From Methylomonas paludis (GTDB taxonomy: Bacteria; Pseudomonadota; Gammaproteobacteria; Methylococcales; Methylomonadaceae), in assembly GCF_018734325.1 (NCBI RefSeq), contig NZ_CP073754.1, positions 2,046,001-2,110,000 of the forward strand: 64,000 nucleotides of DNA, read 5' to 3'. The position numbers and the translations under genes are program-made. Each line of letters opens with the position of its first letter. Positions within the stretch are counted from its first letter, which is position 1. Below are positions 10,476 through 40,462 of the stretch, piece by piece. Below the pieces are notes generated by a model that saw only the letters and a program-made list of their open reading frames with translations, searched no databases and was not told the origin of the DNA.

Positions 10476-10491
10476 AGCAAGAAATAGGCCA
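10476..10491 (-). promoter_or_regulatory. Candidate sigma-54 (-24/-12) promoter for the ExbB-fusion operon
   Basis: On the minus strand the site reads tggcctatttcttgct: GG, ten bases, GC, with TTGCT at -12 as in the consensus. It points toward the ExbB-fusion start 530 bases away, with three MITE copies in between. A shared upstream element lies 82 bp away. Confidence 0.65.
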
Positions 10492-10561
10492 CAAATAAAG
10501 CCACCAAATATCATAAGCTTATCTGTGAACCTAATAATAAATGCTGCTATTTCAGCAGAAA

Positions 10562-10588
10562 CTGCTGATCTACTGTTGATATATCAAC
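10562..10588. promoter_or_regulatory. Candidate enhancer-binding site (ctgttgatatatcaac type)
   Basis: Contains the perfect palindrome gttgatatatcaac. Bases 10562-10584 match 21 of 23 positions at 25305-25327, and ctgttgatatatcaac is identical at 40447-40462. All three lie upstream of GG-N10-GC sites on the minus strand. An RpoN activator (PrsR-like, as known for PEP-CTERM genes) is the inferred ligand. Confidence 0.6.
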
Positions 10589-10677
10589 AAATATACCTAC
10601 AAAATCAACAGCGATGCGCACGCCTAAATATTAACTTGTTCCAAAACAAGCAATCTTTCATTAAAAACAGTCCTTAG

Positions 10678-13600
10678 CTAAGCACCACAACCACTCTTAC
10701 CTTCCCGGACATCGGCAATACTACATTTACCGTAACCAATCACATCAGAACTGAACAGACTGCTGGCTGTTTTGCGCTTGGTGGATTCATCATTATTGTT
10801 ATTATTGTCGGCCATAGTACTTTGGGTGGCGGTTTTGCTGGCGGAAGCTGCGGCACTATCTGCCCCGCCCACTACAGGCACCACCACTGCAGTCGGCACC
10901 CCGATGGTGGCGACCGTTGAGCTGATATTTTGCGCCCCTACCACTGCATTAGCCGCAAGTACTACCTGTCCGCCGGTAATCCCGGCTTCGCCTGCATCTA
11001 TAATACCAAACGGTGCAGCCAGATAGACATTGCCGCCACCGATAGCCTGAATACCACTACCGGATATCACCGGTGGGAAGGTTGTGGTTACAGTACCGGT
11101 TAACGGATCTACGGTTGTAACCGGCGCTGGGGCAGAAATCGCGGCTTTAGCACCTTTACCCGCATCTATGTTACCGGTGGTGCTCCAGGCGGTAATATCG
11201 CCGCCCCCCAGGCTGAATACCCGCGACTGATTGACATTGACGTTACCGTTGGACAGAATATTCAAGCCACCCTGATCCGCCACCACAATACCCAATTGAT
11301 CGGCAGTTTTGCTAATACCGGAAAAAGTTCCGGCCAAGCCGACATCGACTTTGCCACCAGGGGTAAGAATATTAATATCTCCCCCTGCTGCTGTTTCGAT
11401 TTGACTAAACACCAGACTCACATCACCGGCATATTTACTACCCGGAAACAGAGTGTCAATCGCATCGGTGCCAAATTTATACAAGGCGGCGCGCTTGTTG
11501 GGTTCTATGGCGGCGGCAAAGGTGGAAACTTTAAACTCCTCAAACAAAGTGGCTAAAATCTGATTGGTGCTAGCCTCGGGAAGTTGCATTTGCACAATAT
11601 CATCCAGCAAACTGGTCAACAATTGATTAACACTGGTTTTTTGGCTAGCCGTCATGTTTGCCGCGACTTCCAGTTTATTTACGGTTTGCGCCAATTGCAC
11701 CAATAAACCGCTTAACTCTTGCTGCTGGGCATTATCCAGACTGGTCAGAGATTTTAACTGGATAATTCTTTGAAAACTATTGGTCAGTGCGGTATTCTGC
11801 TGTTTCTGTTGATCGGCGGTTAAACCGGCCAAATTTTGTAATTGACCCAGATAAGCCCCCACCGCCTGATACTTGGTGACAAAACCGGCATAATCGATAG
11901 TGCTGGATAAACCGGCCAGCACTTCGATACTGGCGCCGTTGCTGGGTAAAGCCGAATTGGACACATTGCCCACAGTCTGGATACCGGTTGCGGCACCCAG
12001 ATTAATATTACCACCGGCAATTACCTGCAATTGGCCAGGACCTGCCACCTGAATCACCTGGGTATTCGACATGACGCTGCCATTGCTATCATAACTAGTA
12101 TCGAAACTGATATTTTTACCAGCCTGCACCAAAGTCACATCGTTGGTAGTCAGATTTTGGGTGTAGACACTGGTGTCGCTGATATTACCTCCGGCAATTA
12201 TATTTGCCGCTTCCGGCAAATTAAAACTGGCGTTAGCCAAGGTTGGAAAACTGATGTCGCCCAGTCTGGCCATAATCAGGGGTTTGTTAGGGTTGTTCAA
12301 ATACTGAAGCGTACTGGCATGGCTTGTATTGATCAATTTTTGATACGCAGTGGCATGAGTTTGTAAATCTGTTACCGGATTTAAAATGCTGGGTAACAAG
12401 GCAGGATCTTCATCCGACATAATAACCGCCACAGTTTGACTGGTTAACAAGCCGGTATCCATACCAATATTACGGTTTGCCAGTAATTCCAGCGTACCGT
12501 TTACCGACGGATATAAAGTCATTGCATTATCAATTTGGATATCCCCGGATAAAGCCGTAGCTTTCAAAGTGGATGGATATACAAAGTATTCAAAACCGGC
12601 GCTACTTGCACTTCCGAGTTTCTTCAGCGCCGCAATGCTGCTGTTGGAATTTAAAAACGCCACATTGCCGGCCACTGCCTGTATATTCAGGCTGCTATTG
12701 TCACCATAGGAAAAAAATTCAGGTTCTAAAGATTTGCTACCCTTAAGCACTGTTGGATTCATGGCCGTGGCCACATCCACATCCTGACGTGCCTGTAAAT
12801 TAAAATTGCTGGTGCCCAAATCCAGAATAACACCAATAGTATTGGTGCTGCCAGCTATCGGGCTTTGCGAAATACTGTCTCCCGCTGTCAAACTGCCGCT
12901 GCCGTTTGCCACATAATATTCGCCACTAACAATATTATGTCCGGCTGTGACCTGCAAATTGCCACCGCCATTCACATAGGTAGAGGTCTGCGTCCAAGTA
13001 TTAACATCACTAATCACACCCAGCGGCTTACCGGTAGTTGGTATCATCACCGATAAATTATTCACATCGCCACCAGCAGTCACTGTGACATTACCACCAC
13101 CCAAGGCCCCCACATTCTGATTAAAGTTGCGTGATCCTTGTGGATAAATATTAGTAATATTGGATGGAGTTCCAAGGTTACCGCTGATATTGATACCCCA
13201 AGCCGTGGATTGCAGACCAGAGGCAGAGCCAGAACTAGCACTGCGAACCAACCAGTCAGTGATTTGTTGACCTGTCTGTTGACCCTGGATGTTGCCGCCG
13301 GCAGTTAAACTGATATTACCGCCATTGCTGGGATATTCGGCATAAGGATAGCTGCTTAAACCCAAAGTACCCTGACTAAACAAACCATAACGCAATACCT
13401 GATTAAGCTGGGTTTGGCTTAAAGAACTGATATAGCTTTCCAGACTTTGGCCGGCTTGTTGCGCCGGCAAACCTGGAATCGTACCGGCCAGCAAATCAGT
13501 CAGGGTGTAAAGCTCTGTAGTACCAAAGGTATAAATAGCTGAAGCGTTATTCGAAGAAGTCAACTTTTTAGAAGAATCCTTATTCAACACAATATCCTGA

Positions 13601-16600
13601 CCAGCCTGAACATCTATGCTGCCGGTGCCGGTTCTCACTACCACTTGAGTAAGTGTTGTATTGCCGTGAAGATGTCCAGACGGATCAGGCCCCAAATAAT
13701 CAGCAGCCAAATTCACTGTACCGCCAGCCACTAGATGATAACTCCAGGACAAACCCGGCTGTATCACATTTTGAGCCAGAGAACCAGTGTCCTGACCAAG
13801 AATCTGCGTGGTCGCCACACCATCTGAAATACTGGCGTTAATATTCAGATTATCGGCAGCCCGTAGGGTTAGAAAGCCGGGCAGACTCAAAGCACCTGTG
13901 CTGTCGGCATAACGCCAGTTGCCGTTCATGAAATCCCAGACACTGGACAAAGTTAAATCGCTGCTGCTGCGGATCTCAATACCCGGCAAAATCTGCAAGT
14001 TGGCACCGGAATTATCCGTCAATACCGGTTTGGCATTCATAAAACTGCTGGTGTCCTGTAACCAGGTATTGATATTGTCACTGCTAATATTGGTAACATT
14101 ATCATAAATCCGGGTAGCTTCCAGGGCAGTATGACTGGCATTGGCACCGATGATTTTGGCATAAATGGCTGTAACCGCCACGCTGTCGGTGCTGTCATCC
14201 CGGCCTGTGCGTAAATGTACGCTGCCGCCGCTGCCGCCACTGACATTAATCACACCGACCTTGCTACCGTCCTTAGCGGACAAATCCAGCAGCCCTGTGC
14301 CGTTATCGTCTCTATGTACGGTGTCCAGCGTCACACTGCCGCCGGTATTGCCGGCCGTAGTGGAACTGGCATCTATTTTACCGGAACTGCCGAGAGTAAT
14401 GCCGTTGCGGCCATAAACCGTTACACTGCCGCCACTGGCGGCAGTGGCATTAATGGTACCGTTAATAGTGACAATACCCTGATCTACATTTAATACATAC
14501 TGCTGGGCGTTAATCACTGCACCGCTATCAATGCTGATATCGCCATTGGCAATTTCCAGGCTTTGCCCGGCGGAAAATCCGGCACTATTTAAGACGACAT
14601 TCAGGGTTGTATAACTCGTGTTATTGAGATCATGCACATCCAGGGTAAAACTACCGTGACTGACACCTGAGGCGGTCGTAGTGCTGCCGCCCAGCGTATC
14701 AATACTGCCATCCCAGCCAAACTGGCCGTTGGGCGTATTGACATTCAGCGTACCGCCATTGCTTAACAACTGCTTGGCACCACTAACCGTTTTTACCACA
14801 CCGGCCAGGTTTACGGTCGCATTCTTGGCGATTTCAACATTGCCTTGGGCTGCACTCAGCGTCAAACTGCCGGCAGGTGAATATTTACTGGTAGTGCTGT
14901 ACACCACTTCCCGGCCACTTAAATCGATATTACTGCCGCTGTTGATATTAATATCGCCCTGGCCGGCATTCAGGCTTAAACGCCCGGAGGGTAAATCAAA
15001 CAGGGCATTGCTGGTAATGCTCCCGGCGTTAATAGTCCAACTGACACCCAGACCTACCGGCAGGTCTTTTACAGTCTTATTATTGTAGTTAATCGTAAGC
15101 AGATGATCGCCGGCATTAATGGTGGTCGTAGCACCGTTACCGCCGCTTAAAAGCTGCGCGGACAAATTAACATCGCCAGCCACAGTCAACACGCCCGGTG
15201 AGGCCAGCGAACTAACACCAGTGGTGGCGTCTATGATTTGCCCCTGACCATTAATAGCCTGATCTGCATTGATATCAACTGTATTAAAACCGGTAATACC
15301 ATATTGACCACTGCCCAGCACGATATTTTGCCCACTCAGTTGCAAAGTACCGGTGCCGGTACCGGTCTGCTGGGAAGTGCTATTGGTGTTAGTGAAGGTC
15401 AGGGTGCCGCTGGCGGTAATTTTGGCCGTCTCACCCGCATTAAAGCCATTGATCGCGGCAGCATCCACAGTCAGATCTTTACCGCTTAAATTCGCTCCTG
15501 CGTAGATATTTAGATCGCTGGCGCTATGCAAACTCAAAACGCTGGGATTAAAGCCGCTGGAAGTTAATAATGCATCGGACAATACCAGACCAGGGGTATT
15601 GTCCGGAGCTGCACCGATACTAATGCTGCTGGAATTCAAAGCCAGCGCCCCGCCATTAATGTTAATACTGCCTTTAAACACCGTATCCTGGCTGGAGTCC
15701 AGCAACATGGAACCATTGGCAGATAATACCGCAGCATCCTCCACCGTTAATACCCCGCCGCTGCCGGCCAGCGGCAGATCCCGGTTAACGCTTAGCTGCC
15801 CAGCTGTGGAGACCCGCAATAAAGCACCGTCACTACTGGTACCATTGTTGTCTTCCAACTTCACTGTGCCGGTGCTGGTATCGCTGGCTGTACCCGTGGC
15901 TGTGATTTCAGCACCACTGGCAATATGCAGAGTGTTGCTGGCGGCCAGTAAAATTTCCTGCCCACTTAGTGCATTGGCTTTACCAGCCACATCACTCGCC
16001 ACTGTCAAATCGCTGGTTTCGATAATCAAATGTTGACCGCTGGAGTCTTTATAACGCTTACCACCCAATAACAGGCTAGGTGCTTTCAGCGCCGTCAACT
16101 GACTGGACAGCAAACCCACAGTATTACTACCCAGACTGGCTAAATCTTTACTGTTACCAACTACCGTCAAGGAAGTACCGCCGATATCCACCTGACCACC
16201 CAGACCATTTACCCCAGGCATCGCCAACAAGGTGGCGGCCAAAGTCAAATTGGCATTGGCAATAATACCCAGGGTTCCGGCATCTTCAGGTAATTGTGGC
16301 ACCACTGTGCCATTTTGACTGGCCTGGGCGCTAAAAAAACTGTCAGCCAGATAGGCGGTAAATTGGGATGGGCTTTTAGTATTGCTGTTAACCACCAGAT
16401 TACCCGACTTGTTATACGACAGGGAACCGGTAAACAGGGAGCCGGATTGCACGGCAAAACCCTGGGTACGATTGTCGGCAATACTGGTACCGGCGACACC
16501 GTAATAGCCGGACACCACTTTGATACCAGCACTATTGGTAATGGTTTGAAACTGATCCTGGGTACCGGCTTGCGGGGTAATCAGATAAGCGCCCGGCAAT

Positions 16601-21402: not shown

Positions 21403-21578
21403 GTAGCAAAGTACCTATAGATTTATAGATGATATTTTAACTTATTAGCATTTGAGCGGCTGACTCAAATGGCCCGCACTACTTAAGTAAAGGTTATACC
21501 ACTGGTAACTGGTTTTAAAACCAGCTTATCTTTCCCGCCTGAGCGGGTATGAAAATTAAGGCCAAGTTGCGAATCCAT

Positions 21579-21720
21579 CGATTCCACTACGTTGCATCGA
21601 GGCTAAGGGCCGCGATGACACAGACTATCGTAGCTCATTGCGCAGGGTGTTTTCGCGATAGCTAAACTCCAAACACCTGCGAAGTTTTGGTGGCTTGCCT
21701 GGCGGCTAAGCCACCCTACA
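21579..21720. repeat. Dispersed repeat family 2, copy A
   Basis: From the cgattccactacgttgcatc hairpin through gcgcagggtgtttt to ggtggcttgcctggcggcta, this stretch matches 26490-26625 base for base over most of its length. It ends in a small hairpin (ggtggctt / aagccacc, 21689-21715). Noncoding. Confidence 0.75.
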
Positions 21721-21784
21721 TGACTGTTAAGAGAGTTGACCCAAGGTCTACACAACATCCAAGCGTGATTTTCGGGCCATCAGC

Positions 21785-22487: not shown

Positions 22488-24185
22488 TTATTGCAACTCA
22501 ATGGTGTTGCCATTGCCGTTGTCGTAAGCATAAGGCACGATACCCAGGTGGGTATAACCGTCAGAACCTAAGTGAGTCAGACCCACGATAGGGTGAGTGG
22601 TGACATAAGGTACATCAATAGCGCCGGAATCAGTTGCTGTGGTAGCGAAGATACCGGTGCTACCCCAAGGTTGAATCACCGCAGCGTTAACTACGCTGGC
22701 AACTGCAACACTACCCAGATGGTTACCAAAATCAGTGAACAGAGATTGTTCATGTGAGGTACCAACGCTAGGATCAACAATAATCTCGCCTTCTGCCCAA
22801 TAAGGGTAATTGCCGGCTGCTACGTTTTCGATAGTCGGCGCATAGCCGTCAATTTTGACATAACGCCAGTTTTTACCGCCGGTGCCAGCTGTAGTAACAG
22901 TGTTGTTACGGTCAGCACTGTTAACAGCGATACCCCAGTATTTGGCGCCGCTAACATTGTTCAAACCGCTGTTGTTGGTACCACCTTGCCAGTCCAGCAG
23001 CAAATCCTGAGTTGCAGAAGCACCAGTCGGACCCTTAACCAAAGGAGCCGCAGAACTTTCTGCTGCGCTTGTATTAGGAACAAGTGCGGCAGGAGTTGCT
23101 GCTTGGTCAACGTATGGATAGTTCAAGATTTTGGCGTATGCCACTGCGCCGATAGCAGCACCGGTATTACGCAAACCAACTGCCACTTTAGTGCTGGTTG
23201 GCGCGCTAACGCCGGCAGCAGTACGGATAGAAGCATCAGTCAACGATTTTGTAGTACCGCCAACGTTCAATTTAACGTTAGACCAGTCGGTGATATTACC
23301 CGACAGAATTGAAGCCAGGAAGTTGCGGCTGATGGATGGCAGGCTGGCTTGATCATAAGCACCAACTGTGACAGTGGCCGGCAAGTCGCCAGTGGCGATT
23401 TGGGCAGCTTGTAACACTTTATAGAAATCCAGGGTTACACCGATACCGTATACCAGACCACCAGTTGAAATCCGGTTAACAGCACTCAGGTTGTCTGGAG
23501 TTAAAGCATAAGTCCAGCCGGCAGTAGTAGCGTTGGTAGACACTTCTTTAACTGGATCTGGGTAGTTGCTTGAACCTTGAGCCAACAATGCCGCAGTATC
23601 AACACCGGCAAAACCACCGTGTGACTGGGTAGAAGTCAGGAAGGTACTGGCATTGGCTGTGGTGATAGAAGCCGCATGGAACGGTACTGAAACACCGGAT
23701 ACGCCATTAACCACCAAGCTTTGAGTGGTGTTAGTCCAGGTCGCTTGCAGTTTGCTGGTTGCTGTATGGAAAATATCCAGATGATCCAGCGGCAAGTGCG
23801 CCAGAATAGGCACTACACCGTAACCAGCCGCACCCAGTGAGCGTTTTTCCAGCAGGATTTTTTTACCGCGCAAGGCTGCATCAGTCAGCGTGCTGGCACC
23901 GATAAAGTAAAATGAGGTAAAGCGTGAACCGTTAGAGGTGGAAGTAGCGGAAATATCTTGGAAGATATCCACACTGCCTGGCACAGACAAAGCGTCCAGC
24001 ACCACTTGTTGATAAGCCAGATCCTGAGCAGCACCACCAGAAGTGTAGATGACATAATCAGGAGTACCGTAGTTGCTGGCATTTGCGTCATTGGCTTGCC
24101 ATGGGGTGATCGCGTGAGCGGCTTGTGAGCCGGCCAGTAATGCAACTGCACTTGCCAGTGTTTTGAGTTGGTTAGAAAAATTCAT
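22488..24185 (-). CDS. Large exported protein, possibly PstS-like substrate-binding fold
   Basis: The 565-residue product has a clear signal peptide (MNFSNQLKTLASAVALLAGS, cut at AHA|ITP, residue 25). The mature part contains YVIYTSGGAAQD, FYFIGAST and RNFLASILSGNITDWSNVKL; the last resembles the 'SGxIxxWxD' stretch of PstS-type phosphate-binding proteins. Length is much above PstS (about 330), and the rest is Ser/Thr/Ala/Gly-rich. I therefore give a substrate-binding fold as a possibility only. A ggag site eight bases before the ATG supports the start. It lies 52 bases after the PEP-CTERM gene on the same strand and is followed by a strong terminator, so the two form an operon. Confidence 0.6.
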   Translation of the reverse strand: MNFSNQLKTLASAVALLAGSQAAHAITPWQANDANASNYGTPDYVIYTSGGAAQDLAYQQVVLDALSVPGSVDIFQDISATSTSNGSRFTSFYFIGASTLTDAALRGKKILLEKRSLGAAGYGVVPILAHLPLDHLDIFHTATSKLQATWTNTTQSLVVNGVSGVSVPFHAASITTANASTFLTSTQSHGGFAGVDTAALLAQGSSNYPDPVKEVSTNATTAGWTYALTPDNLSAVNRISTGGLVYGIGVTLDFYKVLQAAQIATGDLPATVTVGAYDQASLPSISRNFLASILSGNITDWSNVKLNVGGTTKSLTDASIRTAAGVSAPTSTKVAVGLRNTGAAIGAVAYAKILNYPYVDQAATPAALVPNTSAAESSAAPLVKGPTGASATQDLLLDWQGGTNNSGLNNVSGAKYWGIAVNSADRNNTVTTAGTGGKNWRYVKIDGYAPTIENVAAGNYPYWAEGEIIVDPSVGTSHEQSLFTDFGNHLGSVAVASVVNAAVIQPWGSTGIFATTATDSGAIDVPYVTTHPIVGLTHLGSDGYTHLGIVPYAYDNGNGNTIELQ

Positions 24186-24237: not shown

Positions 24238-25137
24238 TTAGATAGCCGCTTTTTGTGAACGACGTTTCAGACCCAGTGCGCCGAACAGACCAGATGCAAA
24301 CAGCCATACAGATGCTGGTACTGGCACTGCGCTGGCAGTAGGTGTATAAGTCAGTACGCCGGCTGAACTTAATGTGAACGAACCCAATTCAGTGGTGGTA
24401 TTAGGTGATGATGTTGTCAGACTTGGGTTGGTAGCCCAGAAGAAACCTTCTGTAGTCGCACCTGTACCAAATGCGCCTTTGCCGCTGGCACCACCGCTAA
24501 CAGGGGCTGCATCCTGCCCCAGACCGCTATAAAATTTATCAAGAGTACTTTGGGTTGCACTGTATGGTGCGTCGTCTACAACATTGCTGGCTTGTCCAGC
24601 CAAGCTGAAATTGTTGAGATGATTTAGCCAAGCACCAATTGAACCTGTTGCGCTCAAAGTGTTGCTAATGTTCAACGCACCATTGGCCTTGAAGTCTCCG
24701 GCGATAGTCGCGGTTGACAACAAACCCCATTGAGCGGACGCTGTATAGGTAGCTTGTGAACCAGTGCTGTCCAAGTTGGTGAAAGCGGCGCCATCTTTTT
24801 GATAACCACCGATGACAGACCATTTAAAACTGCTCAGGTCGCTCAGAAAAGGGGCGAACTGGCTGACAGCGCTTAAATTCCAGCTCAAGCCAGATGAAGT
24901 ACCTTGGGTACCATTGACAAAGCTGCCGTAGTTCAGACCGGTATCACCCAGGGCCAAATCATAGATAAAAGTATGTTTGTACTCTGCGCTGTTGACGTTA
25001 TTGTCCACACCAGATAATACGATCGAGGAAAAGTTTTGAACGTTGGCCGTATCACCTGGGGTCACTACAGCCGCCGATGCGGTACCTGCAGCCAAAGCCA
25101 GCGTAATTGCTGCTGCTAGTTTGTTTACGTTTCTCAT
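24238..25137 (-). CDS. PEP-CTERM-type sorted surface protein
   Basis: The 299-residue protein has an N-terminal signal (MRNVNKLAAAITLALAAGTA, cut at ASA|AVV) and, at the very end, the tripartite sorting tail: VPVPASVWLFASG, a hydrophobic helix, then basic KRRSQK. This is the VPxPAxVWLF variant of the PEP-CTERM signal processed by exosortase (EpsH) in Gram-negative bacteria that make exopolysaccharide. The middle is beta-rich, Ser/Thr/Asn-rich and without cysteine, as is usual for these variable secreted proteins. No exosortase gene is in this window. A sigma-54-type promoter lies 81-96 bases upstream, matching the known RpoN/PrsK-PrsR control of this class. Confidence 0.85.
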   Translation of the reverse strand: MRNVNKLAAAITLALAAGTASAAVVTPGDTANVQNFSSIVLSGVDNNVNSAEYKHTFIYDLALGDTGLNYGSFVNGTQGTSSGLSWNLSAVSQFAPFLSDLSSFKWSVIGGYQKDGAAFTNLDSTGSQATYTASAQWGLLSTATIAGDFKANGALNISNTLSATGSIGAWLNHLNNFSLAGQASNVVDDAPYSATQSTLDKFYSGLGQDAAPVSGGASGKGAFGTGATTEGFFWATNPSLTTSSPNTTTELGSFTLSSAGVLTYTPTASAVPVPASVWLFASGLFGALGLKRRSQKAAI

Positions 25138-25217: not shown

Positions 25218-25233
25218 AGCAGTTACCATGCCA
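25218..25233 (-). promoter_or_regulatory. Candidate sigma-54 (-24/-12) promoter of the PEP-CTERM operon
   Basis: The minus strand reads tggcatggtaactgct: TGGCA at -24 and a GC at -12 with exactly ten bases between GG and GC. The predicted start would leave a leader of about 70 bases before the ATG at 25137. Confidence 0.75.
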
Positions 25234-25304
25234 ACTTATACGATATTGTTTTACAAGGGAATTTAATCTATTGCTATTAATACATGCTGGTTAATAAGCA
25301 ACGT

Positions 25305-25330
25305 CTGCTGATTTGCTGTTGATATATGAG
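25305..25330. promoter_or_regulatory. Candidate enhancer-binding site of the PEP-CTERM operon
   Basis: Starts ctgctgatttgctgttgata and matches the element at 10562-10584 at 21 of 23 positions. It lies 83 bp upstream of the -24 box (82 bp in the other case), a normal place for an RpoN activator. Confidence 0.6.
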
Positions 25331-25403
25331 CAGTTTTGACTTTCTATAATCTGTACTGAGTGGCATTAATAGATTTGACGTCTGCTGCGCGAGACAATTT
25401 CAG

Positions 25404-28995: not shown

Positions 28996-29016
28996 CTGTT
29001 ACCCATCGTCAACACC

Positions 29017-29793: not shown

Positions 29794-29817
29794 AAATATT
29801 ATCTTATTGTAATTGGC

Positions 29818-31617: not shown

Positions 31618-31684
31618 TTAAATTGTTTATGTTGTTTAACAAGGCGGATGTAGCCGGACATCCGCAAAAATAGCAGGCAAGGGC

Positions 31685-32335
31685 TTAGTGCAATAACTGT
31701 CTAAGCTCGGCTATGGTTTCGGCTGTCAAAGCCTGGCGCAGATTATCCCACACTTCGCCATCCAACTCTTCGGCCAGAATATCGATGGTTTCGATCAGAT
31801 CGTCGAACACCGCAACCGGGTTTTCCAGCTCACGCGGCTCCATGTAAAACGCGATGCCGGGGCAATAGAATTCATCCAGATGTTTATCCGGAAAAGTACC
31901 GGGCTGACTAAGTGAAGCCACTGTAAAATGGACGACGCGGTTTTTATCCAGCCGCTCAAACACCTGAACGCTGCCGTATTGCAATCCGGCCCGTTCGAAG
32001 GCGGCAAACAGGGTCTCACCATTAAAACCCTCATCTGCCCGGGCAATAATGCTGAATTTAAGTAATTTCGGCAATTCAGAGCGCTGTTTGAGGCTGGGGG
32101 GCCTTATGGCATTATCATCCAGTAGGGCATCGCCATCAATCAGGTGATCTACTGAAACCGATTCAGCCGGCTCATCATAGCCGCTGTCATCATCCGGGTT
32201 GTCGAGATCAGCTTCATCATAATCATCCACCTCGCCGCGATCGCGCAGGGTTTTAAAAAAATGCAAAATCAGGATGCCGAGTATTACCAGCACACCGATT
32301 AAAATTATCACGACTCTTAATAATTCTTTATCCAT
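31685..32335 (-). CDS. zipA: Cell division protein ZipA
   Basis: ZipA anchors FtsZ to the inner membrane and is limited to Gammaproteobacteria. The 216 residues show an N-terminal membrane helix (VVIILIGVLVILGILILHFF, about 8-27), a short acidic linker (DDYDEADLDNPDDDS) and the C-terminal FtsZ-binding domain (FSIIARADEGFNGETLFAAF to the end). Its ATG overlaps the smc stop (TAATG). The linker is shorter than in Escherichia coli, so the protein is compact. Confidence 0.92.
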   Translation of the reverse strand: MDKELLRVVIILIGVLVILGILILHFFKTLRDRGEVDDYDEADLDNPDDDSGYDEPAESVSVDHLIDGDALLDDNAIRPPSLKQRSELPKLLKFSIIARADEGFNGETLFAAFERAGLQYGSVQVFERLDKNRVVHFTVASLSQPGTFPDKHLDEFYCPGIAFYMEPRELENPVAVFDDLIETIDILAEELDGEVWDNLRQALTAETIAELRQLLH

Positions 32336-35300
32336 TAGTTTTCTGCCATGCTAACCGCTTCTTCAATATCAACTGCTACCATTCTGGACACGCCAGGCTC
32401 CTTCATGGTAACACCTGCCAAATGTTTTGCAATTTCCATTGTGACTTTATTGTGTGAAATATATAAAAACTGTACTGTGGCTGCCATGTCTTCCACCATC
32501 TTTGAGAAGCGTACCACATTGGCATCATCCAGCGGCGCATCGACCTCGTCCAGCAGGCAAAACGGAGCGGGATTAAGTTCAAAGATGGAAAACACCAGTG
32601 CCACTGCTGTGAGGGCCTTCTCGCCACCGGATAATAAATGGATGGAGCTGTTGCGTTTGCCGGGTGGCCGGGCAATGATGTTGACACCGGCTTCCAACAC
32701 ATCCGGTTCGCTTAATTCCAGATAAGCCTGACCGCCACCAAACAAACGCGGAAACTTTTCTTTGAGGCCGCTATTAATTTTATCGAAGGTTTCCTGGAAA
32801 CGTTGGCGGCTTTCTTTATCAATTTTACTAATGGCCTGATCCAGGGTAAGCAAGGCTTGGGTTAAATCCAGATGCTGCTCATTCAAAAACGCCATGCGTT
32901 CCGATTGAGTCTGGTATTCCTCAATGGCGGTTAAATTGATAGAGCCGAGTTTTTCGATCTCTGTGCTTAATTCATCCAGCGCACGTTTCCAACTGGGTTC
33001 TGCGGCATCGTCCGGCAGATTGGCGAGAATGGCGGCGACATCGGCATTGACTTCTTTGAGCTGTTCTTCCACGGTTTGCTGACGCACCCGGCTATCCTGC
33101 TGTTCAAAACGCAAGCTATCCAGCGCTGCTTTCTGTTTTTCCAGATCGGTTTGGGCTTGGGCATATTGCCGGCTTAATTCGTCGACATTATTTTCATTCA
33201 GGGTTTGGGATTGGCGGCTGGCTTGCAATCGGGTCTCGAACTGCTGTTTTTGCTCCAGTAAAGCTGCCAGTTCCTGTTTTTCCTCATCCAGCGGCGCGAC
33301 ATGCACCTGAAGTTTTTGCTGGAGCTCGCTGATACGATCAGCCGCCTGCTGATTTTGCAATTGCAGGCGCTCAAGCTGTTTGACCGTGAGAATTTCAGAT
33401 GATTTAAGTGATTCGATTTGGGCGTGTAATCGATGCAGATGGCGGCGGGCTTCATCCAGACCGGCATTGCTGTCCTGCTGGCGATTCTGCAGTTGCTGGT
33501 TAAGTTGTTCCAGTGCGGATTTTTCCGCCACCATTTCGGCCAAAGCCTGTTCTGCATCCTGTTTCTGCAGTTCTGCGGCGGCGCTTAGTTCAGCATTTTC
33601 TTGGGCTTCGGCGCTGATTTCAGCTATTTCATGCGCAAGTTGGTTTAAGCGTTGCTGCTGCTGTTCCAGACGTGCCGATTGGGCGCTATGTTCGGCTGTT
33701 TTGGCGGCATACTCGCCACTCAAAAGCTTTTCCTGGCGCTGGTATTGCTCCCGACCCGCTTCTGCGGCGTGCAAAGCCTGTTCAGCAACAGCCAATTGTT
33801 CTTCGTCAGCCTCTATCGCCAGTTGCAGGGTCTGCTGAGCCTGTTTTAAGTCTCTTAATTCTTTTTCGCGATGCAATACCCCGGCTTTACTGTCACTGCC
33901 ACGGCTGATTCTGATCCAATGCCGGCCCAGCCAGGTACCATCGGCCACTATCACGGATTCATGTCCGGCCAGTTGCATGGCTCTGGCTTGGGGAATGGTT
34001 TCGGCACAATAAATGCCGTTTAACAGGCCGGACAAATCCCAGCGACACCGGACTTTGCTGAGCAGATCGCTACCGCCGGACTGGGACTGTGGGGCTGCGG
34101 CAGTTTCAAAAACGGTCAGGGACTGGCGGCTGAGTTTGTGCAATTCATGCAGAATGTCATCGGCGCTATCCAGACAAATGGCTTCCAGATAACTGCCTAA
34201 TACTGTTTCCAACGCCGTTTCCCAACCGGTTTCCACTTCCAGAAATTCGGCCAATCGGGGTTGTTGTAATATGCCGACCTGTTCCAGCCAGACCGTTAAA
34301 TCTTTTTTATCCTTGCCCATGGCATGTTGCTGCAATAATTCCAGTGCGGCGATTTTGCCGTTGATGCCCTGCAATTCGGCGCGACGCTGATGCAGGGTAT
34401 CCTGGGTTTGTTTAATGGTCGGTCTGAGCAGGCTGATCTGTTGCAGTTCGGCCTGTAATTGCTGCTGCAGGGCGCTGCGTTCGGTTTCCAGCATTTCCAG
34501 GGTGCTGTCCAAGGTTTCCAGTTCAAACTGTAACTGGCTGTCCTGCAACTGGCTGCGCTCGCTGTGTAATTTTTCCAGACGCTGCTGGTACTGGCGTTGC
34601 TGACTATCCATCTGTAGCAATCTGACGCGTTGTACTTCGGCTTGTTCGCGGTATTTGGCATTTTCTGCCAGAAAGGTTTCCCATTGTTGCTGCCAGCGCT
34701 GCTTCTGGGTTTGGGTATCTTCTTGCTGGATCAGGGCATCTTCTTCGCGTTCCTTGGCAATCAGCATGGTTTCTTCCGCTTCCAACAAGGTTTGGCGAAT
34801 TTCTTCGAGCTGCTGACTATCCTCCTGACATTGTAGCTTGGCTAGTTGAGCCTGTTCCTGTAAGCGGCTGATTTCGGTGAGGGTTTCGGCGTGGGAGTTT
34901 TGATGATGCTGGATGGATTGTTCCAGACGACCGGCAGCCGAGACCACGCTGTAATATTCTGCCTGCAGGCTGTCCAGATGCTGTTGCTGGTGTTTCTGGG
35001 CATCGCGCTTGCTGTTAATGCCGGCGTCCAGCTCACGCAGTAACACGAACAGTCGATTATGTTCTGCGGCTACTTGTTGCAATTTGGCTTCCAAACCGCT
35101 GGCAGCAGCCTGGAAGCTCTGCCAGCGCATAGCCAGTAATTGCTGTTTTAACAGACGTTCGCGTTTTTTGAGTTCGGTATACTTTTCGGCTTTTTGGGCT
35201 TGCTTGGCCAGATTTTTAATCTGTTTGTCCACTTCTTCGCGCAGATCGTCGAGACGTTCCAGGTTTTCGCGGGTATGACGCATCCGGGTTTCGGTTTCCG

Positions 35301-35832
35301 AGCGGCGTTCTTTGTATTTGGATATGCCGGCGGCTTCTTCGATATGTACCCGCAGCTCTTCGGGTTTGGCTTCCACCATCCGTGAGATGGTGCCTTGTTC
35401 GATGATGGCATAACTGCGCGAACCCAGGCCAGTGCCCAGAAACAAATCGGTAATATCTTTGCGTCGGCAGCGGGCGCCATTCAGCATGAATAGCGACTGA
35501 CCATCGCGGCTGACTTGGCGTTTGATGGAGATGCTCTGGTATTTGGCGTATTCACCGGCGGCCTTGCCTTCGCTATTATCGAACACCAGTTCCACAGAAG
35601 CCACGCTGACTGGTTTGCGCCCGGATGAGCCGTTGAATATCACATCTGCCATATTGCCGCCGCGCAAATGTTTGGCAGAGCTCTCGCCCATTACCCAGCG
35701 CACCGCATCAATAATGTTCGACTTACCGCAACCGTTGGGGCCAACTATTGCAGTCAGGTTGCCGTTTATCGGTATGGTGGTGGGATCGACGAAGGATTTA
35801 AAACCCGCAAGTTTGATTTTTTCCAGCTTCAT
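32335..35832 (-). CDS. smc: Chromosome segregation ATPase SMC
   Basis: SMC forms a condensin ring with ScpAB. I start it at the ATG at 35832 (1165 residues), because MKLEKIKLAGFKSF is the family N-terminus; the frame stays open 34 codons further up without family sequence. Domains: Walker A GPNGCGKS (about 31-38), two long coiled coils with a hinge near the middle (about 510-640), the signature LLSGGEKALTAVALVF and Walker B PFCLLDEVDAPLDD near the end. Overlap with zipA is the smc-zipA arrangement of Gammaproteobacteria without mukBEF. Confidence 0.96.
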   Translation of the reverse strand: MKLEKIKLAGFKSFVDPTTIPINGNLTAIVGPNGCGKSNIIDAVRWVMGESSAKHLRGGNMADVIFNGSSGRKPVSVASVELVFDNSEGKAAGEYAKYQSISIKRQVSRDGQSLFMLNGARCRRKDITDLFLGTGLGSRSYAIIEQGTISRMVEAKPEELRVHIEEAAGISKYKERRSETETRMRHTRENLERLDDLREEVDKQIKNLAKQAQKAEKYTELKKRERLLKQQLLAMRWQSFQAAASGLEAKLQQVAAEHNRLFVLLRELDAGINSKRDAQKHQQQHLDSLQAEYYSVVSAAGRLEQSIQHHQNSHAETLTEISRLQEQAQLAKLQCQEDSQQLEEIRQTLLEAEETMLIAKEREEDALIQQEDTQTQKQRWQQQWETFLAENAKYREQAEVQRVRLLQMDSQQRQYQQRLEKLHSERSQLQDSQLQFELETLDSTLEMLETERSALQQQLQAELQQISLLRPTIKQTQDTLHQRRAELQGINGKIAALELLQQHAMGKDKKDLTVWLEQVGILQQPRLAEFLEVETGWETALETVLGSYLEAICLDSADDILHELHKLSRQSLTVFETAAAPQSQSGGSDLLSKVRCRWDLSGLLNGIYCAETIPQARAMQLAGHESVIVADGTWLGRHWIRISRGSDSKAGVLHREKELRDLKQAQQTLQLAIEADEEQLAVAEQALHAAEAGREQYQRQEKLLSGEYAAKTAEHSAQSARLEQQQQRLNQLAHEIAEISAEAQENAELSAAAELQKQDAEQALAEMVAEKSALEQLNQQLQNRQQDSNAGLDEARRHLHRLHAQIESLKSSEILTVKQLERLQLQNQQAADRISELQQKLQVHVAPLDEEKQELAALLEQKQQFETRLQASRQSQTLNENNVDELSRQYAQAQTDLEKQKAALDSLRFEQQDSRVRQQTVEEQLKEVNADVAAILANLPDDAAEPSWKRALDELSTEIEKLGSINLTAIEEYQTQSERMAFLNEQHLDLTQALLTLDQAISKIDKESRQRFQETFDKINSGLKEKFPRLFGGGQAYLELSEPDVLEAGVNIIARPPGKRNSSIHLLSGGEKALTAVALVFSIFELNPAPFCLLDEVDAPLDDANVVRFSKMVEDMAATVQFLYISHNKVTMEIAKHLAGVTMKEPGVSRMVAVDIEEAVSMAEN

Positions 35833-36097
35833 GACTGGCTGAACAGGCCCGGAATTGATAAATAATAAGTTATTATCGACGATATGTTGCTTAGATTCGA
35901 CTGGAATTTTAAACAGGCGCGACAATCCCAGCAATAGACCTATAAAATCAATCGCTTATTCAGCTTAGACACCAAGATCAGGATTGTCAAAAATTTAGTC
36001 GGGAACTGACTACCTGCCGGACAATAGCCGATTTTATGATAAGGGGGCAAAAAACTTACCCCCAGACACTAACAATACGCCTGAACCAAATAAAAAA

Positions 36098-36514
36098 TTA
36101 TTTGGCCTCAGCAAGCTGAGCCGGATCCTTGATTTTTAACAACCAGCCATCCTGACCTAAGCAACCGCCATCCGCCGCTTTGGCTGTGACGTGTACCCGG
36201 GCAAAACCATCGCGTAAGGTGGCCGGCAGCTTGGCGTTGACCAGCAGAAAGGTGACTTTGTTGGTGACGGTTACCGTGAGTTTTTCACCTTTGGCTTCTG
36301 CGGTAACACTGCCTGGATCGGTGCCACGGCTGGCATGAAAGGAAATTTGCGATTCCGGTGCTACCTCAGCCAGATGGCCTGGATTGGCATCGCGAAACTT
36401 GGGCTTTTTACAAACTTTCTCATCTTCTTCGTCGGGTGTTACTGCCCATGCGGTACTGCTGAATATGAGGGTGCTGATCAGAATAATACGCTTCCAGTTG
36501 ATAGGTGTTTTCAT
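36098..36514 (-). CDS. Small exported protein of unknown function
   Basis: The ATG at 36514 is chosen because gagg lies six bases before it and a signal peptide then follows (IILISTLIFSSTAWA). The mature part of about 115 residues holds two Cys (KVCKKPKF and GGCLGQDGW) that could form a disulfide. It is beta-rich with KLTVTVTNKVTFLLVNAKLP and RVHVTAKAADGG, suggesting an Ig-like sandwich. I do not recognise the family. An AT-rich hairpin spans its stop codon. Confidence 0.6.
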   Translation of the reverse strand: MKTPINWKRIILISTLIFSSTAWAVTPDEEDEKVCKKPKFRDANPGHLAEVAPESQISFHASRGTDPGSVTAEAKGEKLTVTVTNKVTFLLVNAKLPATLRDGFARVHVTAKAADGGCLGQDGWLLKIKDPAQLAEAK

Positions 36515-36643
36515 AGTCGGCCTCTTGATTATTATTGTAATTATTGCAAACTGGCTGGTCACTTTAATCAGTTTTCTCAAACATTTCAATGCCTAAATCA
36601 GCTATTATTTTTGGCTTGATGGAAGCATGTGAACCTTAAACTC

Positions 36644-36765
36644 CTAGTGGTTGACCAATATTATAGTTGTGCCGACTCTGGAGGCGCATGGTTCGCAATT
36701 GATGCGCATCACTGCGTTCAGCGCATCCTACGTCGTATCCGGCAAAATAAGATTGGTTGAGTACT
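36644..36765. repeat. MITE-like element, internally deleted copy
   Basis: Starts ctagtggttgaccaat and ends aagattggttgagtactca. The centre keeps ggttcgcaattgatgcgcat and gttcagcgcatcctacg. About 20 bases after the left end are missing compared with the full copy at 62783-62925. Confidence 0.75.
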
Positions 36766-37025
36766 CATTAAATCAGTAAATGTTACGGCAAAGCCAGCAA
36801 GCGGACTGATCTGGAAACTTTAGGCAACATTTAGTAACTATTAGCTATCCTGATTGCAGATTCAGCACTGCTTTGACAGTTTATTGCGTTAAAAATACCA
36901 GCCCAATGCCATAAGTCAAGTACCGATGACGCTTACTAAGCCAGAACAAGACAATAGCTGCAGGGTTTTTTAGTGTTTTTATGAGATAATAACGAGTTTT
37001 ATTTTAGCCGTAATGGAGATTTTGG
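36766..37025. other. purE upstream region
   Basis: No gene is visible. A tggag site lies just before the purE ATG. I see no convincing PurR box and no clear sigma-70 pair that I would assign. Confidence 0.4.
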
Positions 37026-37517
37026 ATGACCGCATTGATAGGCATTATCATGGGTTCCTCAAGCGACTGGGAAACAATGCAGCATGCTGCGCAAACCCTG
37101 GAACATCTTGGTATACCGCATGAGGTCGAGGTCATATCCGCTCACCGGACTCCGGACAAATTATTTCAGTATGCCGAAAATGCCGCAGACCTAGGTCTGG
37201 AGGTGATTATTGCCGGTGCCGGTGGTGCCGCGCATTTGCCGGGCATGACTGCCGCAAAAACTGTTTTGCCGGTACTGGGTGTGCCAGTACAATCCAAGGC
37301 GTTAAACGGCATGGATTCTTTATTATCCATTGTACAAATGCCGGCCGGAATCCCGGTGGGTACTTTGGCAATCGGCAAGCCGGGCGCGATTAACGCGGCT
37401 TTGTTGGCTGCCGCCATTGTCAGTAATAAACACCCGCAGTTCCGGGCCGCACTGGATAATTATCGCCGCCAGCAAACTGAAACCGTTTTGGCTAGCCCAG
37501 ATCCCAGACAGGTGTAA
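37026..37517 (+). CDS. purE: N5-carboxyaminoimidazole ribonucleotide mutase (PurE)
   Basis: PurE converts N5-CAIR to CAIR in purine synthesis. The 163 residues show GSSSDW (10-15), ISAHRTP with His40, [11 protein letters not shown] and VLGVPV, as in class I PurE octamers. It lies two bases before purK, so the two are translated together and act in sequence. Confidence 0.97.
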
Positions 37518-37519
37518 TT

Positions 37520-38614
37520 ATGAAAATAGGTATTTTAGGTGGCGGTCAGCTCGCCAGAATGATCGCTTTGGCCGGCTATCCGCTAGGATTGAAATTCATA
37601 GTGCTGGATCCCGATCCAAATGCAGGAGCCGGTGGCTTGAGTGAACACTTGCACGGTGCATATGACGATCCGCAGCTATTGGCTGAGCTCGCCGAGAAAG
37701 CCGATATTGTTACTTATGAGTTTGAAAATGTGCCAGCTGATGTTGCGGCCTTTTTAAGCAGTCATACCACTGTTTATCCACCAGCCAATGCTTTGGCTGT
37801 TGCTCAGGACAGGTTGTTGGAGAAGAATTTCTTTCGGGAATTGGGCATAGGCACTGCGCCTTACCGTGCTATCGATAGCCTTGCAGATTTAGAGCAAGCC
37901 ATGCCTGAGATTGGTTATCCAGCCATTTTAAAAAGCCGGCGCATGGGTTATGACGGTAAAGGCCAGGCTTTATTGCATTCGGCGCAAGATCTTGCTGCTG
38001 CCTGGGAAAGTGTGGCTGGAGTGCCCTGTATTGTGGAAGGTTTTGTCGGTTTCAGCCGCGAAGTTTCGATTATTGCCGCCCGCAGCCCTTCCGGACATAT
38101 TGTGTTTTATCCGCTCTCTGAGAATCGTCACAAAGGCGGCATTTTGCGGATTGCTGAATGCCGCAACAATGATGCGCTGCAGGCCCAGGCTGAGAATCAT
38201 GTCCGGCTGTTGCTGGAAAGGCTGGGCTATGTTGGCGTTGTCGCGCTGGAATTGTTTGATGTAGATGGAGAGCTGCTGGCCAACGAGTTTGCTCCCAGAG
38301 TCCATAATTCCGGACATTGGACGATAGAAGGCGCTGAAACCAGTCAGTTTGAAAATCATTTACGGGCCATTCTGGATTTGCCGCTAGGCTCTACCAAACC
38401 ACGCGGATTGGCGGCTATGGTTAATTTTATTGGTGGTTTGGCTCCAGACCCGGCTGTGCTGGCTCTGGCGGATAGCCATTTACATCTTTACGATAAAGAA
38501 CCACGTAAAGGCCGTAAAGTGGCGCATGCCACAGTGCGCAGCGATGATGGGATTATTTATGCGGAAACTCTGGAAAAGCTGCGCTTACTGGCTGAAGCTG
38601 TAGACGATTCTTAA
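37520..38614 (+). CDS. purK: N5-carboxyaminoimidazole ribonucleotide synthase (PurK)
   Basis: PurK uses ATP and bicarbonate to make N5-CAIR from AIR, the substrate of PurE. The 364 residues begin MKIGILGGGQLARMIALAGY, then carry the ATP-grasp fold (ILKSRRMGYDGKGQALL, FVGFSREVSII, and the metal site GELLANEFAPRVHNSGHWTI). Length is normal. No clear terminator follows. Confidence 0.97.
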   Translation: MKIGILGGGQLARMIALAGYPLGLKFIVLDPDPNAGAGGLSEHLHGAYDDPQLLAELAEKADIVTYEFENVPADVAAFLSSHTTVYPPANALAVAQDRLLEKNFFRELGIGTAPYRAIDSLADLEQAMPEIGYPAILKSRRMGYDGKGQALLHSAQDLAAAWESVAGVPCIVEGFVGFSREVSIIAARSPSGHIVFYPLSENRHKGGILRIAECRNNDALQAQAENHVRLLLERLGYVGVVALELFDVDGELLANEFAPRVHNSGHWTIEGAETSQFENHLRAILDLPLGSTKPRGLAAMVNFIGGLAPDPAVLALADSHLHLYDKEPRKGRKVAHATVRSDDGIIYAETLEKLRLLAEAVDDS

Positions 38615-38938
38615 GCTATCTGGATTGGGTGCCCGGCCAAAATTTGGAGCATCCGAACAGATTTAAGAATATGTTTGCGCTAAGCAAAACGGCTGATGCG
38701 CAAAATGGAATGTAATTATTCTGCGTAAGTTTTAAATAATCCTTTTTAACAAGCAATTAGCCTCGAATAATGGGCTGCACTGCATTTAGCACATCCTACA
38801 ACTGCCTGTTTTTTAAAGTGATAATTGGACGCTTAATAGTTACAATGGAATAAATATTGGCGATCTGGTGGTGTAATACGCCTTACCATTGCAGACAATA
38901 ATGCCGAACCAAAGCGGATTACAAACTCCATCTGGTAA
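38615..38938. other. Intergenic region with a weak MITE trace
   Basis: Between the convergent purK and the glycosyltransferase. Bases about 38771-38801 (gctgcactgcatttagcaca...) resemble the 3' part of the MITE-like element. An 8-bp inverted repeat ccttacca / tggtaagg lies at 38881-38888 and 38933-38940. No gene is seen. Confidence 0.4.
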
Positions 38939-38963
38939 GGTAGCGAGCTTAAGCTAAGCTACC
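38939..38963. terminator. Near-perfect palindrome after the glycosyltransferase gene
   Basis: Starts ggtagcgagcttaagctaag and is self-complementary over 25 bases except two positions. It lies 35 bases after the minus-strand stop. No T-tract follows, so termination is uncertain. Confidence 0.4.
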
Positions 38964-38997
38964 GATGCGTCCTGCTCAGCAGATCTACGGCAGAGTT

Positions 38998-39963
38998 TTA
39001 AGCACGCGTCGATCTTGATCTAAACAATCTTTTCAGCAGAAGATCTCTGGCAAACAATAATAAGAATGTTGGATTGGTACTCAGATACCGTTTGACCAAG
39101 CGTCTTTCTTTGAACATGCGATACAACCATTCCAGACCGTATTTTTGCATCCAATCGGGGGCACGCACTACATGGCCGGAATGAAAGGCAAAAGCTGCGC
39201 CTACGCCTATCTGTACCGGTACATTAATCCGATCCAGATGCTCGGCTATCCATTTTTCCTGTTTTGGGGCACCCAGACCCACCCATAAGAAATCCGGTTT
39301 AGCTGCGTTGATTTGATCGACCAGTTGCTGATCTTCTTCGGCAGTTAAGGCCCGGAACGGTGGTGAATTCCAGCCTACTATATCAACACCGGGAAAACGT
39401 TGCCGGGTGGCTTCAAGCAAATCGTTAAGCACATAATCCTTACCCCCCAAGAAGAAATGCTTCCAGTTTTGCTGGCGACCTTCATCCAGGCATTTTTCCA
39501 TCAGGTCGGGCCCACATACCCGGCCTTCTACTGCAGATTTATTGATGAGGTTGGCATACCAAACCAAGGGCTGACCATCCATGGTAGTTAAGGCATTATT
39601 GCAGATGCTGCGCAGGTTTTTATCGGTCAGGCAGGTTACTACTGTATGGACATTGGCTATGCAAACTTGATGGGAGCCGGCAGCATTGATCCAACCTTGG
39701 AAAATGGTTAATAATTTTTCATAACTCATTATCGGGAACTTGGTACCCAGAATATCTTGAATTTCTGGTGTGGCCTTACCGGTTTTGGTGGTGCGCAAGC
39801 TCACAGCCGGCTTTTCAAAGGCGATATTGTCTGCATAACGGAGTACCAGACTGTCATTAAAGGACTTTCCTTCCATTACCTTGCTGGCCTGAACCAATGA
39901 TGGATAGACCCAAAAGCTTGGTAGCATCCAAAATGCTGATACGAGTTTTTTGTGGGTATTCAT
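38998..39963 (-). CDS. WecG/TagA/CpsF-family glycosyltransferase with N-terminal extension
   Basis: These enzymes add N-acetylmannosamine-type sugars to lipid-linked intermediates of polysaccharides. The ATG at 39963 is chosen since agga lies nine bases upstream (321 residues). Residues 1-70 are an unusual extension with a hydrophobic start (LVSAFWMLPSFWVYPSLVQA). The family domain then covers CIANVHTVV (as in the usual 'xTxNxH'), NNALTTMDGQPLVW, VCGPDLMEKCL, FFLGGKDYVLNDL, DFLWVGLGAPKQEKWIAEH, VPVQIGVGAAFAFHSGHVVR and APDWMQKYGLEWLYRM. No other polysaccharide gene is adjacent. Two sigma-54-type sites and a ctgttgatatatcaac element lie upstream, linking it to the PEP-CTERM operon. Confidence 0.88.
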   Translation of the reverse strand: MNTHKKLVSAFWMLPSFWVYPSLVQASKVMEGKSFNDSLVLRYADNIAFEKPAVSLRTTKTGKATPEIQDILGTKFPIMSYEKLLTIFQGWINAAGSHQVCIANVHTVVTCLTDKNLRSICNNALTTMDGQPLVWYANLINKSAVEGRVCGPDLMEKCLDEGRQQNWKHFFLGGKDYVLNDLLEATRQRFPGVDIVGWNSPPFRALTAEEDQQLVDQINAAKPDFLWVGLGAPKQEKWIAEHLDRINVPVQIGVGAAFAFHSGHVVRAPDWMQKYGLEWLYRMFKERRLVKRYLSTNPTFLLLFARDLLLKRLFRSRSTRA

Positions 39964-40245
39964 TTCGTATATTCCTGAGATAATTTCATAGGTTGAATAC
40001 TCCGCAACTGCCTGCGGTTTAACCAATCAAACTACATGTACAAGTTTTATGCCATTTGCCAATTTACGCCGGTAAGTGGCGTAATACCTAATACACGTCC
40101 GTGTTATCAATCAGAAAGCCTGACTGGATTAAATAAACTGAGTTATTTAACACAGTGCTGCCAAAAAATTGCGTCTATTGCCGATTTTCATTTCACTCAA
40201 ATCAAAACTGCTTACCGCAAAAAACTTATGCAGAATAAGAATATT

Positions 40246-40261
40246 AGCAGTACTAATGCCA
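40246..40261 (-). promoter_or_regulatory. Candidate sigma-54 promoter of the glycosyltransferase gene (near)
   Basis: Minus strand tggcattagtactgct, GG-N10-GC, very like the PEP-CTERM promoter (tggcatggtaactgct). It lies 283 bases before the start codon. Confidence 0.55.
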
Positions 40262-40381
40262 TCGGAAATGCAGCTATCTGCACATAGCATAACGACTAAA
40301 TATTTCAGTTTGATTAAATAGCACGTATAGTGCGAATTGAGTTGGCGGCGCAATGGCTTCCCTAACACTCACAATATAGTC

Positions 40382-40397
40382 AGCACATATCGTGCCA
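40382..40397 (-). promoter_or_regulatory. Candidate sigma-54 promoter of the glycosyltransferase gene (far)
   Basis: Minus strand tggcacgatatgtgct with the full TGGCAC at -24 and GC at -12. It lies 50 bp from the ctgttgatatatcaac element. A related site at about 40320-40335 lacks the GG. Confidence 0.55.
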
Positions 40398-40446
40398 TAA
40401 AAAAGATGAGCTAAAGCCATGATTTATAGCCATAGCCACTAATGAG

Positions 40447-40462
40447 CTGTTGATATATCAAC
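40447..40462. promoter_or_regulatory. Candidate enhancer-binding site (ctgttgatatatcaac)
   Basis: Identical over 16 bases to 10573-10588 and close to 25316-25330. It is followed by ctgctgcttagctgctg, a repeat of the ctgctg half found next to the other two copies. Confidence 0.6.

Follow-up and report, generated by a model that had tools for sequence, protein, structure and literature searches.

SfnR of Pseudomonas is reportedly a sigma-54 activator that is itself under CysB and turns on dimethyl sulfone use when sulfate is lacking, and it consists of AAA+ and helix-turn-helix (HTH) domains only. At glnAp2, the two sites for dimers of the activator NtrC are spaced by about 32 bp. The best-known cases of sulfur-depleted protein versions come from cyanobacteria. 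Here, we describe a stretch of 64,000 nucleotides (the window) from Methylomonas paludis (assembly GCF_018734325.1, contig NZ_CP073754.1, positions 2,046,001 to 2,110,000), in which sigma-54-type promoters with paired upstream palindromes precede genes for surface and secretion proteins, several of them almost devoid of cysteine and methionine. We consider it fairly probable that these promoters belong to a sulfur-sparing regulon, in which an SfnR-like enhancer-binding protein (EBP) acts on the paired palindromes and activates both its own locus and a set of nearly Cys/Met-free exported proteins.

In published accounts, SfnR1 and the msu and ssu proteins are raised in sulfur-starved P. aeruginosa (PMC12581299), sulfur-depleted phycobiliproteins are described from cyanobacteria (Mazel and Marliere 1989, as cited in PMC5513900), sigma-54 promoters with an upstream motif before PEP-CTERM genes are the hallmark of PrsK/PrsR control (Haft 2006, PMC1569441), and the Aquincola pepA depends on RpoN and has a mapped start site of the -24/-12 type (PMC9850573). 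The present locus resembles the PrsK/PrsR-RpoN system in having sigma-54 promoters before PEP-CTERM-type genes and an upstream enhancer at similar spacing, but differs from it in having no PrsK or PrsR over cut-off, no TTTACA core, paired palindromes, and a receiver-less activator. As with the phycobiliproteins, a Cys/Met-poor second version of abundant proteins exists beside a normal one; here, however, it is a methanotroph surface/secretion cluster with a candidate sigma-54 activator. As with NtrC at glnAp2, a spacing of three helical turns separates the paired sites ahead of a -24/-12 promoter, whereas the operator sequence is another one and the activator has no receiver domain. With SfnR, the EBP family shares the AAA+/HTH-only architecture generally ascribed to that protein, and it adjoins sulfonate monooxygenases, cysB-like genes, and sulfur-type ABC transporters. 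Its targets are surface and secretion proteins, whereas those of SfnR are sulfur scavenging enzymes, and the two are likened by gene context. A literature search that covered few subscription papers found nothing that connects SfnR or sigma-54 with surface proteins free of sulfur.

All four GG-N10-GC sites listed in a first-pass annotation of the window are present on the minus strand (Table 1). They have the TGGC/TGC context of sigma-54 promoters, and an RpoN gene is present in the genome. The upstream element said to be shared by three of these promoters was found at 10574, 25317, and 40448; the reported 21 of 23 match (10562 versus 25305) and the identical third copy are correct by eye, with gaps of 82, 83, and 50 bp, counted to the T of the -24 box. 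The third copy had been described as lying three helical turns closer to its promoter. Its 50-bp gap stands, but the copy is not displaced: the operator unit comprises a pair of TGYTGN6CARCA palindromes spaced by 32 bp, one about 50-54 bp and the other about 82-86 bp from the -24 box, and the reported distances thus represent the two slots of one operator pair, of which the third copy is the proximal member. In a scan of TGYTGN6CARCA spacings from 17 to 399 bp across the window, 32 bp ranked top (two pairs with at most two mismatches, against a mean of 0.03 per spacing). The pair upstream of the WecG-type gene is imperfect, its distal member having a 7-bp centre, so that a composite scan allowing three mismatches in total finds only the first two promoters in the window. 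The element itself, at up to three mismatches, occurs four times in the window against 0.34 expected, and none of 100 shuffles reached that count. Identification of the element as an FNR box was dismissed by eye, since TTGAT-N2-ATCAA has N2 and not the N4 of the FNR consensus as commonly given.

Specificity resides in the arrangement rather than in the motif. The exact 16-mer TGTTGATATATCAACA has two copies in the 3,673,651-bp genome, both inside the window. At up to three mismatches, the element occurs at 29 places, against 13 for a reversed control, so the loose match by itself means little, and the element as a stand-alone 12-16-mer is insufficient; it is separated from background only by the -24/-12 register and the pair. 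The loose motif is only mildly enriched in the genome, and only five promoters are in register. These five combine a -24/-12 match of at least 10/12 with a gap of 50-52 or 82-83 bp and come from 28 of the 29 loose places (the remaining one is the window's own three-mismatch hit at 57367). Three are those of the window and two lie at 2.833-2.835 Mb, where the promoter near 2,835,019 precedes a 113-aa protein with, by eye, a signal-peptide-like start and a sorting-signal-like tail; all four of its Met fall inside the first 27 residues. A variant pattern occurs at 60 places in the genome against 6 for its control, and the 50 of these that were listed include two palindromes spaced by 31 bp ahead of ssuD at 1.73 Mb; our list of regulon members in this genome is incomplete. 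One further candidate in the same genome (945861; L032:11800-14007) was rejected: an operator pair precedes two PEP-CTERM-type genes with TGGC in register but, by eye, no acceptable -12 GC, so that the promoter would be decayed or different.

The same arrangement recurs in related genomes. Gaps from the exact site to a good -24/-12 match fall at 50-54 or 82-86 bp in 41 of 67 cases, the other 26 being spread from 18 to 203 bp. The composite of pair, gap, and -24/-12 gave 60 hits in 1.47 Mb of related DNA and none for each of four control patterns; this DNA was selected for its relatedness and contains redundancy, so the count shows specificity and not frequency. Among 61 genomes, the palindrome (at most one mismatch) occurs in 13 and its reversed control in none. 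The EBP C-terminus has a strong match (E <= 1e-39) in every one of these 13 genomes, and a copy of the palindrome lies directly upstream of the EBP in 11 of them. With one locus counted per genome, and second copies left out (e.g., G002 4,690,114; G057 4,436,530), the composite precedes the VPLPA-type gene/g565 in six of the seven closest loci (the seventh being at a contig end) and in 0 of 23 others, and the ExbB fusion in 6 of 16 close loci and 0 of 14 others, in the same six genomes. The ExbB and VPLPA promoters thus recur before the same genes in five other genomes. Outside Methylomonas, seven loci have g565 divergent from the EBP, with a composite 52-54 bp from the -24 box at 0-3 mismatches. 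In a separate group (L064, L066-L071), a pair near the EBP stands 97-98 bp from a -24/-12-like site, a spacing off this rule, and the gene that follows, which starts MWIVNIALRRPYTFIV, is RND-type by eye.

The proteins encoded behind the operators are strongly depleted in sulfur. The filamentous-haemagglutinin-type (FHA) protein has 21 Cys plus Met in 3,574 residues. Six g565 proteins with the operator contain a single sulfur-containing residue in 3,416 aa, compared with 334 in 11,098 aa among 21 full-length paralogues without it, each of which keeps 10-11 Cys and 1-12 Met. Across g565 homologues, the 13 with the composite have 0-3 such residues and the 23 without it have 0-22 (median 15; Mann-Whitney, P = 1.6e-6), with 21 of these 23 at 11-22. 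This test omits L207 (contig end), L221 (fragment), L141 (wrong frame), L156 (464 aa, two sulfur residues, no composite, frame apparently incomplete), and the second-cluster g565 of M. paludis itself; L122 and L208 are retained in the group without the composite. In the four genomes compared (G000, G002, G016, and G032), there is a second cluster of the same gene types. The composite is present in the operator cluster and was not found in the second-cluster stretches of these genomes (L302-L304, L313-L315). In each of 25 within-genome gene pairs, the member from the operator cluster has the lower Cys plus Met content, by a hand count in which several FHA and porin frames are incomplete. In M. 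paludis, the sulfur-richer cluster without a composite lies at 1.596-1.632 Mb (L302/L303), and in G002 both kinds of cluster stand in tandem. Sulfur-depleted proteins coexist with a normal paralogous version, richer in Cys and Met, in the same genome.

The EBP gene (2,833,347-2,834,420) is about 0.77 Mb from the window cluster and sits between the two operator promoters at 2.83 Mb. It encodes 357 aa with a Sigma54_activat domain (24-189), the GAFTGA motif, and an HTH_8 domain (300-337) slightly below cut-off; there is no receiver or sensor domain. Of 26 loci, 13 have the composite upstream of the EBP gene, namely L050 and all of L034-L046 except L041. The EBP of L041 nests within the composite-bearing group of the EBP tree; L048 and L049 have the pair only, and L047 has too little DNA. 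Within flanks of at most 5 kb, genes of the TpsB/238-aa/Porin_5/TonB/ExbD/ExbB operon occur at 10 of 80 EBP-family loci and g565 at 10, 19 loci in total (L159 counts in both classes, and two weak ExbD-only matches are excluded). The nine EBPs adjoining the ExbB/TpsB operon (L111, L112, L114, L116, L123, L135, L137, L138, and L143) are 85-88% identical to the M. paludis EBP. We call the family SfnR-like because its neighbours are sulfur genes (ssuD, cysTA-cysB, and encapsulin/cysteine desulfurase/cysK). Next to the M. paludis EBP gene lie cysE, cysK, and the genes for an encapsulin-2A shell protein and its cysteine-desulfurase cargo. The L145 EBP comes after cysT, a gene for a sulfate-type ABC ATPase, and a gene that resembles cysB but scores below cut-off; in Acinetobacter (L168), the EBP adjoins a DmoA/NtaA-type monooxygenase and an ABC transporter. 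No SfnR model was among the 25 families listed out of 31. The receiver-less EBP at 2.833 Mb fits the operators better than PrsR and is the best candidate for the activator.

Taking together the operators, promoters, recurrence, sulfur depletion, paralogous cluster, linkage, and sulfur-gene neighbourhoods, all read from the DNA, we infer that the EBP binds these operators, that sulfur limitation is the signal, and that isoforms switch over time. An EBP without a sensor domain is most simply controlled by its amount, and sulfur shortage might raise that amount via CysB, a leader RNA, or both. The EBP would then bind as two dimers on the two palindromes, form an AAA+ ring, and open the sigma-54 promoter, with autoactivation locking the state. 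The sulfur-free exported set (VPLPA-type, g565, FHA/TpsB, and ExbB-ExbD-TonB-porin) would replace the sulfur-richer one, and the operator-free, sulfur-richer paralogous cluster would serve sulfur-replete cells. A regulon with an operator, a candidate activator, and a paired normal version would make elemental economy of the surface directly testable in methane oxidisers. PEP-CTERM-type genes would also gain, next to PrsK/PrsR, a second route of sigma-54 control.

A leader RNA may form an additional layer. In 12 of 26 EBP loci, a conserved block, GCTGACCGGANNNCCGGAAGCC, followed by a terminator lies about 75 bp after the EBP -24 box (further in L043). The same block precedes cysK in M. paludis and in eight other loci (starts by eye); in L134 it stands before an encapsulin shell gene, and in L143 before the EBP. 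Over 19 sequences, eight base pairs of the terminator stem show changes in both partners. Of five measures, four lie above every one of 500 shuffles, the exception being the number of pair types. Rfam gave no match at the gathering threshold in the loci searched, and relaxed thresholds gave one sub-threshold overlap (BcKCsr2). The leader is a candidate sulfur-linked attenuator or riboswitch and, from its distribution, might link EBP expression to sulfur genes. We tentatively suggest, as a possibility that we rate below even, a two-layer sulfur-starvation circuit in methanotrophs: an undescribed leader RNA (GCUGACCGGANNNCCGGAAGCC plus terminator) on cysK, encapsulin-shell, and EBP transcripts would tune the SfnR-like activator, which in turn would swap in a Cys/Met-purged adhesion and secretion apparatus. 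If so, hardly any sulfur would be exported.

Several observations weigh against a sulfur-sparing regulon run by the 2.833-Mb EBP. The palindrome (at most one mismatch) is absent from 13 of 26 genomes with a strong EBP match (E < 1e-19), and 10 of the 16 close ExbB fusions have no composite within 1.5 kb. ExbB fusions are sulfur-poor to nearly the same degree without the composite (1.74%) as with it (1.47%; P = 0.09), the g565 of L208 is sulfur-free with no composite found, and the second-cluster g565 of M. paludis has only eight sulfur residues, all Cys, with no Met past the start. Exported proteins are usually Cys-poor anyway, and the gene pairs and orthologues are non-independent samples. 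In the window, the 1.09-kb region upstream of the FHA gene itself has no operator or good -24/-12 site, and the WecG-type protein is not sulfur-poor, nor is its promoter conserved. Lastly, a second SfnR-like EBP of the same family, located with ssuD and an SfnB/DszC-like gene (L294:2863-8769), offers an alternative acting protein.

This paralogue, alone or together with the 2.833-Mb EBP, could act on the same operators with sigma-54 in a merged sulfonate and surface regulon, which we judge unlikely. Its operator pair upstream of ssuD follows the same consensus (31 bp apart, 51 bp from TGGCATGTTATTTGCG). The EBPs whose genes lie divergent from g565 in other genera (L151, L152, L153, L155, L159, L160, and L161) are 58-61% identical to it and 61-64% identical to the 2.833-Mb EBP, a similar distance that favours neither of the two. 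However, EBPs with an operator before their own gene are of the 2.833-Mb type, as are the nine adjoining the ExbB/TpsB operon, whose identity to the ssuD-linked paralogue is 53-59%.

We regard as similarly unlikely a general biofilm or attachment programme that responds to another signal, low Cys and Met then reflecting abundant exported proteins. Most targets are indeed surface-related, and the second-cluster FHA and VPLPA-type proteins are Cys-poor even without the operator. Such a programme is at odds with the Cys and Met retained by the full-length operator-free g565 paralogues and with the sulfur genes that adjoin the EBP family.

Control by the PrsK/PrsR two-component system through sigma-54, which the first-pass annotation had proposed, is very unlikely. 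Sigma-54 promoters with an upstream motif before PEP-CTERM genes and the published RpoN-dependent pepA would favour it, but no family member exceeds its cut-off in this 99.98% complete genome: the best PrsR match (TIGR02915) scores 356.7 bits against 502.6, and the best PrsK match (TIGR02916) 98.4 bits against 300, a cut-off exceeded in 39 of the 61 genomes searched. None of the four promoters has TTTACA, the core that ends the 17-nt PrsR motif and the part scanned for, in the 180 bp before it, and the operator differs. As far as family models reach, this system is refuted. The broader proposal of one sigma-54 regulon with surface functions fares better, since the RpoN gene, the paired operators, and promoters recurring in five other genomes support it; the regulator it named is not supported. 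The least credible reading of all has the palindrome bound by a sigma-70-type regulator or a nucleoid protein and the -24/-12 matches due to chance. Sites resembling -24/-12 are indeed frequent, with 72 loose matches in the window where 55 are expected, but the 50-54/82-86 bp register, the recurrence across genomes, and controls of zero speak against it.

Table 1. Promoters, operators, leader copies, and target genes (window coordinates unless stated otherwise)
Feature	Position	Strand	Remarks
-24/-12 promoter TGGCCTATTTCTTGCT, ExbB-fusion operon	10476..10491	-	
Proximal operator TGCTGCTATTTCAGCA, ExbB promoter	10542..10557		gap to -24, 50 bp; overlooked in the first-pass annotation
Distal operator TGTTGATATATCAACA, ExbB promoter	10574..10589		gap 82 bp; 32 bp from proximal
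-24/-12 promoter TGGCATGGTAACTGCT, VPLPA-type operon	25218..25233	-	
Proximal operator TGCTGGTTAATAAGCA, VPLPA promoter	25285..25300		gap 51 bp
Distal operator TGTTGATATATGAGCA, VPLPA promoter	25317..25332		gap 83 bp
-24/-12 promoter TGGCACGATATGTGCT, upstream of WecG-type gene	40382..40397	-	
Proximal operator TGTTGATATATCAACA, WecG promoter	40448..40463		gap 50 bp
Imperfect distal operator, WecG promoter	40480..40496		17-bp form, 7-bp centre
Second -24/-12 site TGGCATTAGTACTGCT near WecG	40246..40261	-	no operator pair in register
Promoter TGGCACGATTAATGCT	genome 2,832,866		pair at 2,832,767 and 2,832,799
Promoter TGGCATATAAAGTGCT	genome, near 2,835,019	opposite to 2,832,866	second palindrome at two mismatches
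Leader copies GCUGACCGGANNNCCGGAAGCC + terminator	L026:8435-8500; L026:15392-15461; L134:1440-1509	+; -; -	16 more; L026:15392-15461 precedes M. paludis cysK
TpsB-type (ShlB/FhaC) outer-membrane secretion protein	2784..4415	-	
238-aa protein	4412..5128	-	family not confident
Porin_5 putative porin	5137..6954	-	
TonB-like protein	7079..7750	-	
ExbD/TolR	7761..8165	-	
ExbB/TolQ fusion, DUF2341 + LamG-type domain	8169..9944	-	0 Cys; Met-free from after start codon to residue 369
FHA protein, DUF3739, 3574 aa	10678..21402	-	2 Cys, 19 Met
g565, 565 aa, signal-peptide-like start	22488..24185	-	0 Cys, start Met only
299-aa exported protein, VPLPA-CTERM-like tail	24238..25137	-	0 Cys, start Met only
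WecG/TagA/CpsF glycosyltransferase	38998..40026	-	C+M (Cys plus Met) 4.05% of 321-aa frame

The targets named in the first-pass annotation were an ExbB-fusion operon, a PEP-CTERM operon, and a polysaccharide glycosyltransferase gene. The PEP-CTERM label is weak, the VPLPA-CTERM tail scoring 20.5 bits against a cut-off of 25.35; three exosortase-type matches in the genome exceed the Pfam cut-off. The g565 protein has no Pfam family and no relative in the PDB with E < 1, and its predicted structure has a mean predicted local distance difference test score of 46. The glycosyltransferase is weakly supported and is the weakest member of the regulon. Its composite was found at one of 20 loci scanned, its own, and there at four mismatches; the full-length orthologue in G032 has the pair with no -24/-12 in register, and that in G019 has neither. 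Firm membership is thus not upheld.

By eye, repeat units about 140 bp apart (..aacattactttgacggaaa..agaggatgtgccgactcttgagg..gcatcctac..) occupy window positions 10165-10440 and about 40600-40700. They sit between the exbB promoter and the exbB gene, where they stretch the exbB leader to about 500 bp, and also upstream of the WecG promoter.

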